Shown: positions 31,577-34,399 of the stretch, piece by piece
Layout: every line of letters starts with the position of its first letter
How positions within the stretch are numbered: the first letter of the stretch is position 1
Source of the DNA: Ruania rhizosphaerae
Lineage (GTDB): Bacteria > Actinomycetota > Actinomycetes > Actinomycetales > Beutenbergiaceae
Reading direction: 5' to 3'
DNA: 64,000 nt
Assembly: GCF_009805705.1 (NCBI RefSeq)
Contig: NZ_VSMB01000003.1
Span: forward strand, 124,001 to 188,000
The notes under the pieces: model-generated
Databases searched by the model: none
What the model was told of the DNA's origin: nothing
The model's input: the letters and a program-made list of their open reading frames with translations, nothing else
Translations under genes and position numbers: made by a program

Positions 31577-31780
31577 GTGTGTCCTTCCCTTCGGTCGGAA
31601 CCCGTCGCGGTCTCGCCGCGACGAGAGGTCTCCCTCGTCTTCATGCTAGGTCGGCCGGCCGCAGTCCGCGCGGGGAGCCGCACGATTGGCAGTGATGACC
31701 CCGGCGGGCGCTGGCTGTACTGACAACTGGCCCGTGAGGTGCGCAGCCGTCCACCGGCGCAGGGGCGCTACCATGGGCGT

Positions 31781-31819
31781 ATGCAGTTGGTCCTGCTCCT
31801 TATCGAGCCGCGTCGGTAG
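31781..31819 (+). CDS. Putative leucine-rich leader peptide of leuS
   Basis: The 12-residue frame reads MQLVLLLIEPRR, with four different Leu codons (TTG, CTG, CTC, CTT) plus Val and Ile near its middle. It would be translated as a leaderless message from the TACCAT promoter at 31769-31774. Its last codons lie in the first arm of the hairpin upstream of the terminator. This is the expected design of a leader peptide that senses leucyl-tRNA charging. The alternative frame from ATG 31773 is not Leu-rich. Confidence 0.55.
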   Translation: MQLVLLLIEPRR

Positions 31820-31838
31820 ATCACACACCGTCGCGGCT

Positions 31839-31863
31839 GCCCCTCTGTGAGAGGGGCTTTTTT
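31839..31863 (+). terminator. Intrinsic terminator inside the leuS leader
   Basis: A perfect 8-bp stem with a GTG loop is followed by six T residues. It points towards leuS and lies between the leader peptide and the leuS start, so transcription must read through it to express the synthetase. Confidence 0.85.
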
Positions 31864-31906
31864 GTGCCGATGCCACAGGGCAGGACTCACCCGGGAGACG
31901 AGGCGA

Positions 31907-34399
31907 ATGAGCACCGAGCAGATCGAGACCACCTACGACGCGCACGCCATGGAGGCGAAGTGGTTGCCGGTGTGGGAGGAGCTCCAGCCCTTCCGTGCCG
32001 ACGACGAGGCGGTGCGCACCGGCGAGAAGCAGAAGCGGTACGCCCTCACGATGTTCCCGTACCCGAGCGGGGACCTGCATATGGGGCACGCCGAGGTGAC
32101 AGCCCTGCACGACGTCATCGCCCGGTACTGGTGGCTGCGCGGGTTCGAGGTGATGAACCCGATGGGTTGGGACTCCTTCGGCCTGCCGGCCGAGAATGCC
32201 GCGATCCGCAATGATGAGCACCCGGCCACCTACACCTACGGCAATATCGACACCCAGGCGGCCTCGTTCAAGAAGTTCGGCATCAGTTTCGACTGGTCCC
32301 GACGGTTGCACACCTCCGACCCGGAGTACTACCGGTGGACGCAGTGGCTGTTTCTGAAGTTCGCCGAGCGCGGGCTGGCCTATCAGAAGTACTCGCCGGT
32401 CAACTGGTGCCCGAACGACCAGACCGTGCTGGCCAACGAACAGGTCGTGGACGGGCGGTGTGAGCGGTGCGGTGCCGAGGTGACCAAGCGTGAGCTGAAC
32501 CAGTGGTACTTCAAGATCACCGACTACGCCCAGGAACTGCTCGACGACCTGGACGGCCTGGCATCGACCTGGCCGGATCGCGTGGTCACCGCACAGCGGA
32601 ACTGGATCGGACGCTCCGAGGGCGCCCACGTCGATTTCACGCTGCACCTGGCGGACCGATCCGACCGGGTCGTGACTGTCTACACCACCCGCCCGGACAC
32701 CCTTTACGGCGCCACCTTCATGGTCGTCGCCGCCGACGCCGGGCTGGCCGCCGAGATCGTCGCTCCCGAGCGACGTGAGGCCTTCGAGGCGTATCTGGCG
32801 CAGACCCGCAAGGCCTCCGACATCGACCGCATGTCCACCGAGCGACCCAAGACCGGTGTGGACCTGGGCGTCACCGCGACGAACCCGGTCAGCGGGGAGC
32901 AGGTGCCGGTGTGGGCCTCCGACTACGTGCTGGCCGACTACGGCACCGGGGCGATCATGGCGGTACCCGCGCACGACCAGCGCGACCTCGACTTCGCCCG
33001 CGCCATGGGACTGCCGGTGCGCCGGGTGATCGACACCGGTGAGGAGAACCCGGAGACCTCCGGTGTGGCCACCACCGGTGACGGTTCCTACGTCAGCTCG
33101 GGAGTGCTGGACGGGCTCACCGACAAGCAGGCCGGGATCGCCACGATCGTCGATCGACTGGAGTCCGAGGGCACCGGCACCCGCGCCGTGAACTTCCGGC
33201 TGCGCGACTGGCTGCTGAGCCGGCAGCGCTACTGGGGCTGCCCGATCCCGATCATCCACTGTGAGTCGTGCGGTGCGGTTCCGGTGCCGGAGGACCAGCT
33301 CCCGGTGACGCTGCCGGACATGCGCGGTGCCGACCTGAAGCCGAAAGGCGTCTCCCCGTTGGCGACGGCCACCGACTGGGTGAACGTCGACTGCCCGCGC
33401 TGTGGTGCTGCGGCGAAGCGCGACACCGACACCATGGACACCTTCGTCGACTCGTCCTGGTACTTCCTGCGCTACTGCTCACCGAACGATGGCACCCAGG
33501 TGTTCGATCCCGAGCTGACGAATGCCTGGATGCCTGCAGACATCTACGTCGGCGGTGTCGAGCACGCCGTGCTGCATCTGCTGTATGCCCGGTTCTTCGC
33601 CAAGGTGCTGGCCGATATGGGCCTGCTGGAGGTGCGCGAGCCCTTCGCCGCGCAGCTGAACCAGGGCGTGGTGATCAACGAGGGCAAGAAGATGAGCAAA
33701 TCCCTGGGCAACGGCGTGAGCCTGGGGGAGCAGCTGGCAGAGTTCGGCGTCGACGCGGTGCGCCTGACGTTGGTATTCGCCGGCCCGCCGGAGGACGACA
33801 TCGACTGGGCGGACATGTCCCCGGCCGGGTCGCTACGGTTCCTGCAGCGGGCGTGGCGCCTGGCGGGAGACGTGACCTCCGCCGTCGGGACCCCCGCGGA
33901 CCAGGGCGATACCGCCCTGCGGAAGGTGACTCACAGGACCCTGCACGAGGCGGCGGGCCTGATCGAGTCGCACCGGTTCAACGTGGTAGTGGCTCGCACG
34001 ATGGAGCTGGTCAACGCCACCCGCAAAGCCATCGACTCCGGTTGTGGCGGGGCCGATCCGGCCGTGCGGGAAGCCGTGGAGGCGGTGGCCATCCTGCTCT
34101 CGCTGGTCGCCCCGTACACGGCCGAGGACATGTGGGAGCGGCTGGGCCACGCCCCGACCGTGGCACGCGCCGGCTGGCCTGAGGTGGACGAGTCGCTGCT
34201 CGTGGAGGATGTCGTCACCTGCGTGGTCCAGGTCAAGGGCAAAGTGCGTGGGCGACTCGAGGTCTCCCCGGACATCTCCGAGGCCGACCTGCAGGCCGCC
34301 GCGCTCGCCGACCCAGGCGTGCAGCGCGCCTTGAACGGTGCCCAGGTGCGCAAGGTGATCGTGCGCGCACCCAAGCTTGTCAACATCGTCCCGGCATGA
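31907..34399 (+). CDS. leuS: Leucyl-tRNA synthetase
   Basis: An 830-residue class I aminoacyl-tRNA synthetase that charges tRNA-Leu. The HIGH motif appears as [12 protein letters not shown] (HMGH), and KMSKS as [11 protein letters not shown]. The CP1 editing domain lies about 225-415 with [14 protein letters not shown] and the editing-site Asp region in [17 protein letters not shown]. Zinc-site cysteines occur in RCERCGAEV and [10 protein letters not shown]. The C-terminal anticodon-binding region is complete. The ATG at 31907 has GAGG three bases upstream. Expression probably depends on the leader at 31769-31863. Its 3' end faces a HerA-like ATPase gene across the second 47-bp palindromic element. 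Confidence 0.97.

Follow-up and report, generated by a model that had tools for sequence, protein, structure and literature searches.

Upstream of leuS in Streptomyces avermitilis and Streptomyces coelicolor, Seliverstov et al. 2005 predicted a leader peptide, an antiterminator and a terminator (PMC1262725), and the reannotation of Streptomyces lividans TK24 gives a leaderless LeuL2 peptide, MRAVRLLLSEPR-stop, with a hairpin and a U stretch downstream (PMC8079986). We analysed a window of 64,000 nucleotides from Ruania rhizosphaerae, whose leuS leader shares with S. lividans leuL2 the gene, a 12-residue peptide (MQLVLLLIEPRR-stop) and the succession of hairpin and U stretch, has a -10-like box placed as for a leaderless transcript, and differs from leuL2 in sequence and loop length (PMC8079986). 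Directly upstream of leuS, the window carries a Leu-rich short frame, a hairpin (P1) and a GC-rich terminator with a U run; with leuL2 published and attenuators predicted before Streptomyces leuS, the element is therefore of a kind already known.

The antiterminator of the enterobacterial leu leader shares bases with its terminator. In the window, codons for the amino acid of LeuS itself are present in the leader frame, as in a classical attenuator, and no antiterminator sharing terminator bases was found. Enterobacterial leuL is likewise a leader with Leu codons, among which the rare ones matter (PMC1183508), but it controls biosynthesis, whereas the window leader precedes a synthetase gene. 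The Corynebacterium ilvB-II motif has an upstream frame running across most of a P1 hairpin and then a terminator P2, and its lacZ fusion was high in minimal and low in rich medium, the direction expected here; it differs in gene and amino acids, and its figure legend says that an antiterminator is marked (PMC10272879). The LEU element of actinobacterial leuA also has a Leu-rich leader but is described with no typical terminator and with a base stem between the Leu run and the Shine-Dalgarno sequence (SD) plus a pseudoknot (PMC1262725); among our leaders, a LEU-like complement just 5' of the SD occurs in L001-L003 and is not family-wide. Mutating regulatory codons in the leaders of S. coelicolor ilvB and leuA is noted there to have had effects unlike those of classical attenuation (Seliverstov et al., PMC1262725). 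We found no description of a leuS leader in the accessible portions of PMC1183508, PMC8355165, PMC2965389, PMC4833913 and PMC10272879.

The features of the locus are collected in Table 1. An earlier note on this DNA had described a -10 box of the leaderless type, a 12-codon frame with four Leu codons, a 12-bp hairpin holding the stop codon, and a GC stem with six T and 43 nt to leuS, with hairpin and terminator abutting but not overlapping. Re-reading the sequence bore out the box, the frame, the terminator and its 43-nt distance from the end of T6 to the leuS ATG, and the coordinates agree that the two hairpins abut and have no bases in common. The P1 hairpin also stands, with a slightly generous length: its stem has 11 pairs plus one U.U, and its 5' arm lies within the end of the leader frame, so that of the TAG stop just the T is inside it. 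The terminator stem is 7 bp (GCCCCUC/GAGGGGC). Folded in isolation, P1 and the terminator have energies of -19.0 and -14.0 kcal/mol, and one of 200 shuffles of the 201-nt leader region folds at least as well (z -2.67). The position of the -10 box places the putative transcript start at the leader ATG, making the transcript probably leaderless. Behind the U run, the window has GTGCCGA at 31864-31870, and a TG(T/C)CCGG-like motif was seen by eye 3' of the U run in many leaders.

Table 1. Features of the leuS leader region, numbered from the first nucleotide of the window
Feature	Position	Strand	Basis or remark
-10-like box TACCAT	31769-31774	+	Sequence; six nt 5' of ATG 31781
Leader peptide frame MQLVLLLIEPRR-stop	31781-31819	+	Sequence; re-read by script; TAG stop 31817-31819
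Leader Leu codons	TTG 31787, CTG 31793, CTC 31796, CTT 31799	+	Sequence
Last Leu codon CTT, near-invariant and rare	31799-31801	+	8 nt before first model base of P1 (31807)
P1 hairpin	31806-31838; arms 31806-31817 / 31827-31838	+	Fold, covariation
Intrinsic terminator	31839-31863; stem 31839-31845 / 31851-31857, T6 31858-31863	+	Sequence, fold, covariation
GCAGGACU, complement of Leu-codon run GGUCCUGC (31789-31796)	31880-31887	+	Possible extra stem; closest relatives only
GGGAG, probable leuS Shine-Dalgarno	31893-31897	+	Sequence alone
leuS, leucyl-tRNA synthetase	31907-34399	+	Sequence, LeuS searches

We scanned both strands of the window by script for short frames with TANNNT 6-7 nt before an ATG or GTG, at least three Leu codons and at least 25% Leu. 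A single frame, at 31781, has these properties, with a terminator-like stem and a T run behind it. Rfam gave no family at gathering score anywhere in the window, T-box included; between 31700 and 31960, its only matches at E<=1 were two weak ones to sRNA families, far under their gathering scores. Of the leaders described below, 152 of 154 have a TANNNT box 6-7 nt on the 5' side of the start codon chosen for them, whereas nearby positions show one at a rate of 3.4%; the leader figure is flattered by the choice of start among in-frame candidates, for which such a box was preferred.

Searching the first 183 residues of LeuS in 59 genomes yielded 30 loci, 22 of which show the leader pattern by eye. 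Sixteen leaders were aligned (A2), and a model, R1, was built from A2; because the window leader is among the 16 training rows, its own R1 score is not independent. At E<=0.001, R1 matched 86 of the 297 genomes searched from the order and 159 of 394 from the class (a draw that overlaps with the order's), and at E<=1e-5 it matched 21 of 396 phylum genomes, of which four, from a single genus, lie outside the class; these tallies are lower bounds, since stricter filters lose weak matches. After 100 places had been fetched, R1 scans of 100 loci and of 67 loci gave 170 matches, from which 7 not before leuS, 3 secondary matches and 4 identical segments were removed to leave 156 distinct leaders. One of the 7 (L124) fell by chance within a frame in the genome that the window comes from. 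The 156 loci were hand-picked rather than drawn at random (the 22 of 30 loci from the LeuS search, and from the order and class searches the top hits and roughly one or a few per genus), with 21 rows coming from the LeuS search and the rest fetched with R1. A LeuS motif lies downstream of 155, and the remaining one runs into a contig end. The exact LeuL2 peptide, MRAVRLLLSEPR-stop, occurs in 11 of the 156; a Pro-Arg peptide end is common in the family, not universal.

For a set whose choice does not depend on the leader, 80 loci were fetched by LeuS alone, being the best matches to the window LeuS among those listed; some genomes, and one identical leader segment, are common to this set and the 156. 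At 69 of these 80 loci, R1 detects the element 5' of leuS, in genera that include Nocardioides, Arthrobacter, Nonomuraea and Actinomadura. Five of the 11 loci lacking an R1 match (L258, L259, L261, L263, L268) still carry a short frame, leaderless in layout, that contains a CTA codon for Leu; one (L260) has a frame but no Leu, and one (L254) is the second member of a tandem leuS pair. In that genome, Actinotalea caeni (L008/L254), two different leuS-like genes stand in tandem, with an R1 leader 5' of the first, the distant type (L040).

Both hairpins show covariation. Changes on both sides of a pair were seen at 16 of 17 pairs in alignment A3 and at 12 of 17 in both A4 and A5, counts reached by 0 of 500 shuffles in each case; these counts lean towards R1 because the alignments were fitted to it, and A3 and A4 still include secondary matches and matches not before leuS. 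When the partner was slid by 1-3 columns, 41-57% of cells could pair, against 96-98% in the true register. A first small alignment made with MAFFT gave 9 of 17 pairs (0 of 500 shuffles), with the structure named after the alignment had been viewed. The earlier note had proposed looking in relatives for a Leu-rich frame followed by a terminator: this arrangement is kept in many actinobacterial families, and the leader element is confirmed as conserved upstream of leuS and not a product of chance.

The last Leu codon of the frame, taken at the position that R1 assigns and here called the core codon, is strongly biased. Among the 156 leaders, it is CTT in 138, CTC in 12, CTA in 4 and CTG in none, the two odd cases being a register slip with a CTT present by eye (L116) and a contig end (L154). 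In the leuS genes that follow these leaders, as far as they are readable (3646 Leu codons), CTT makes up 1.0%, CTC 16.5% and CTG 78.9%. The 69 LeuS-fetched leaders repeat the pattern (CTT 63, CTC 3, CTA 2, CTG 1, against 3.2% CTT and 15.4% CTC among 745 Leu codons of their leuS genes), and the window leuS itself has CTT at 2 of 68 Leu codons. The core codon lies 8 nt from the first P1 base in 150 of the 156 leaders and in all 69. If CTC and CTT served equally, CTC would dominate; therefore, the U of CTT is selected, and the simplest reading is that CTT is a slow codon. Nine long tRNA genes of the window's genome (of 45 matches) include four for tRNA-Leu, with anticodons TAG, CAG, GAG and CAA, one each. 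By standard wobble, only GAG among them reads CTC and CTT. Leaders reduced to one Leu codon fit this reading in part: L029 retains a single one, a CTT. In four of the loci lacking an R1 match (L258, L259, L261, L263), the single Leu codon is a CTA two codons before the stop, and CTA is less rare there (8/60). In the Salmonella leu leader, changing three CUA codons to CUG lowered sensitivity, and the same source warns against explaining the codon effect by rarity alone, a rule that it calls too simple (PMC1183508). An arrest peptide acting through the common C-terminal Pro-Arg was also considered; we rejected it because 33 of the 156 leaders stop at the second codon after the core codon, and so end before Pro-Arg, and yet match the P1 and terminator model.

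We folded 154 leaders in four states: with the bases under the ribosome masked, placing the core codon in the A site with a footprint to +8 or to +11, or the stop codon in the A site, and as free transcripts. With the core codon in the A site, the mean best-pair probability of P1 was 0.996 on masking to +8 and 0.78 on masking to +11; it fell to 0.038 when the stop codon occupied the A site, and free transcripts gave 0.97. For the window, masking to +11 left P1 at 0.98 in a transcript cut at the U run and at 0.28 in one reaching 31930. The mean probability of the terminator was 0.93-0.97 in all four states, falling below 0.5 in 4 to 10 of the 154 leaders depending on state. Since the terminator is predicted to form whatever the ribosome does, pairing alone gives no switch: ribosome position sets whether P1 is open or closed, yet the pairing of P1 does not decide terminator formation. 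Folding of the window and the 154 leaders revealed no pairing antiterminator, P1 and terminator having no bases in common, in agreement with the earlier note, which could not identify one. Two candidates were examined by eye and set aside: the Leu run could pair with the 3' arm of the terminator, but this was judged too weak against the local 7-bp stem, and an alternative hairpin between a UANCNGG stretch and sequence 3' of the stop was seen in a few leaders and faces a P1 probability of 0.97 in the free transcript, for which reason it was dropped.

The junction between the two hairpins is tight. The gap is 0-2 nt in 153 of 156 leaders and in 68 of 69 in the LeuS-fetched set, and model-free RNAfold placed it in this range in 215 of 218 measurable leaders (221 folded), or 98.6%, against 64% when the upstream part was shuffled; abutment is thus enriched, though frequent in GC-rich sequence anyway. 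Both hairpins of L259 and L263 have changed in sequence and still lie one nt apart.

A leuS copy with 64-65% identity to that of the window over the searched part is present in three genomes of the same genus, along with a second, distant LeuS-like gene. In the leaders of these copies (L016, L019, L022), the layout of the peptide and P1 are retained, no clear U-tract terminator is visible by eye, and CCUCAGC, the 3' arm of P1, is a complement of the Shine-Dalgarno sequence GCUGAGG. Pairing of arm and SD as a family-wide switch was rejected, the mean duplex energy being -9.00 against -9.16 for permuted partners over 153 leaders (the permuted-duplex tests used a secondary match for one leader, L070). 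Five leaders had arm:SD duplexes better than all 40 permuted partners: these three, at -15.8 to -17.4 kcal/mol, and L064 and L113, at -13.5 and -14.0 kcal/mol. Five top-ranked among 153 is about what chance would give, and only L016, L019 and L022 lack a clear terminator. In these three, a ribosome at the stop codon gave an arm:SD probability of 0.88-1.00. With the ribosome on the core Leu codon and masking to +8, P1 was at 1.00 and arm:SD at 0.00, with the SD only 27-38% unpaired; masking to +11 raised arm:SD to 0.52-0.63, in competition with P1. The free transcripts disagree, with P1 at 1.00, 0.77 and 0.04. Because the arm pairs with the SD when P1 is open, closed P1 would be the ON state in these leaders. 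This argues by homology, on the small base of three related sequences, that closed P1 may be ON in the window too. From the geometry and the Shine-Dalgarno variant, we infer that Leu starvation would lead to readthrough.

The earlier note had suggested leader-peptide attenuation before leuS, a reading now supported by conservation, covariation and the published Streptomyces leuS element. The parts of the leader, their conservation, the codon choice, the geometry and the opening and closing of P1 with ribosome position are established in silico. We consider it likely that the element is a ribosome-mediated leuS attenuator of the leuL2 family, and propose that closed P1 sterically blocks the terminator. 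Judging from the -10 position, transcription would begin at the leader ATG and a ribosome would load at once. With ample Leu-tRNA, it would reach the stop codon and cover the P1 5' arm, holding P1 open; the terminator would then fold inside the exit channel of RNA polymerase, stopping most transcripts short of leuS. With scarce Leu-tRNA, the ribosome would stall on the Leu codons, the rare CTT being the last of them, and the 8-nt spacing would let P1 fold at the mRNA entrance of the stalled ribosome, as predicted in silico in a footprint-dependent manner. Closed P1, 0-2 nt from the terminator stem and backed by the stalled ribosome, would be too bulky for the base of the terminator hairpin to close inside the polymerase, which would read through into leuS. 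Steric antitermination is a proposal; the spacing, the outcome of folding and the polarity are consistent with it. We put forward only tentatively that antiterminator-free attenuators of this design are widespread, with a stall-closed hairpin blocking an abutting terminator by space, a near-invariant rare CUU codon 8 nt away as trigger and, within one genus, the hairpin re-used to free an SD. In what we could consult of PMC1262725 and PMC8079986, the CTT codon, the 8-nt spacing, the abutment and the Shine-Dalgarno variant are apparently undescribed.

If this attenuator operates as proposed, many actinobacteria would couple a synthetase gene to how far its own tRNA is charged. The comparison brings a loosely described attenuator down to three sharp, testable features: the codon CTT, a distance of 8 nt and a junction of 0-2 nt. 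Should P1 act by bulk, predictors that seek overlapping alternatives would miss such attenuators.

Other readings keep the attenuator or replace it. The same parts could work with P1 as a pause hairpin or as part of a two-hairpin terminator, readthrough being decided by the stalled ribosome pushing or crowding the polymerase. P1 and the terminator do not compete by pairing, closed P1 would shorten the path between stalled ribosome and polymerase, and hairpin clusters have been reported as terminating units (PMC8355165), opposite to steric antitermination; the Shine-Dalgarno variant appears to use P1 as an ON structure with no clear terminator, and we regard this version as possible but doubtful. 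The folding and duplex tests also bear on control exerted mainly on translation, in which the Leu-codon run would pair with 31880-31887 near the leuS start, like the leuA LEU element. The GGUCCUGC:GCAGGACU stem is in the minimum-energy fold, with a probability of 0.42 in the free transcript and 0.00-0.01 with a ribosome on the leader, and permuted partners did as well in 0 of 40 cases for L001 and L002 and 1 of 40 for L003. However, the pairing is not special in L004 (0.675) and L005 (0.925) of the same genus, nor does it characterise the family (duplex energies average -10.29, and -10.03 for permuted pairs, with 12.4% of 153 leaders at p<=0.05), and the window SD is 63-75% unpaired in every state tried, making mainly translational control improbable.

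That a protein or a tRNA reads the leader instead of a ribosome, whether T-box-like or through the LEU-binding protein proposed in 2005, we hold to be very unlikely: regulation of actinobacterial leuA was indeed proposed to be protein-mediated (PMC1262725), but the leaders conserve their start codon, reading frame, stop and choice of codon, and the Rfam search of the window returned nothing at gathering score. As for a short frame meeting a stray terminator by chance, with no regulatory role, GC-rich DNA does fold readily, as the shuffle null indicates, whereas the conservation found in relatives, the covariation and the codon bias all speak against it, leaving this reading next to no probability. 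The ribosome-mediated attenuator, with steric blocking by P1 as its proposed step, is the reading we prefer.

The gene behind the leader has an ancestry of its own. In a tree of 61 rows and 177 columns, the window LeuS nests among Nocardioidaceae (enclosing 24-row clade, 99/96), and because it groups with them and not with the host's family, leuS, and perhaps its leader too, looks horizontally acquired. R1 also matches leaders before other genes: L122 and L123 precede genes that read as leuA by eye (VLGTILLLSRRVEA-stop), and among L175, L176 and L178 there are leaders before ilvB-like genes (VRVITLVLRGRAG-stop, VQSFFLVLIERAG-stop) and a citramalate-synthase-like gene (MPSQVLIIVRRAG-stop), again by eye. 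The leuS, leuA, ilvB and citramalate-synthase-like leaders may therefore follow a common branched-chain leader layout. One further leader (L177), MFTPRIII-stop with an ATT-ATC-TAG end, is followed by P1 and a terminator and stands before no identifiable gene.
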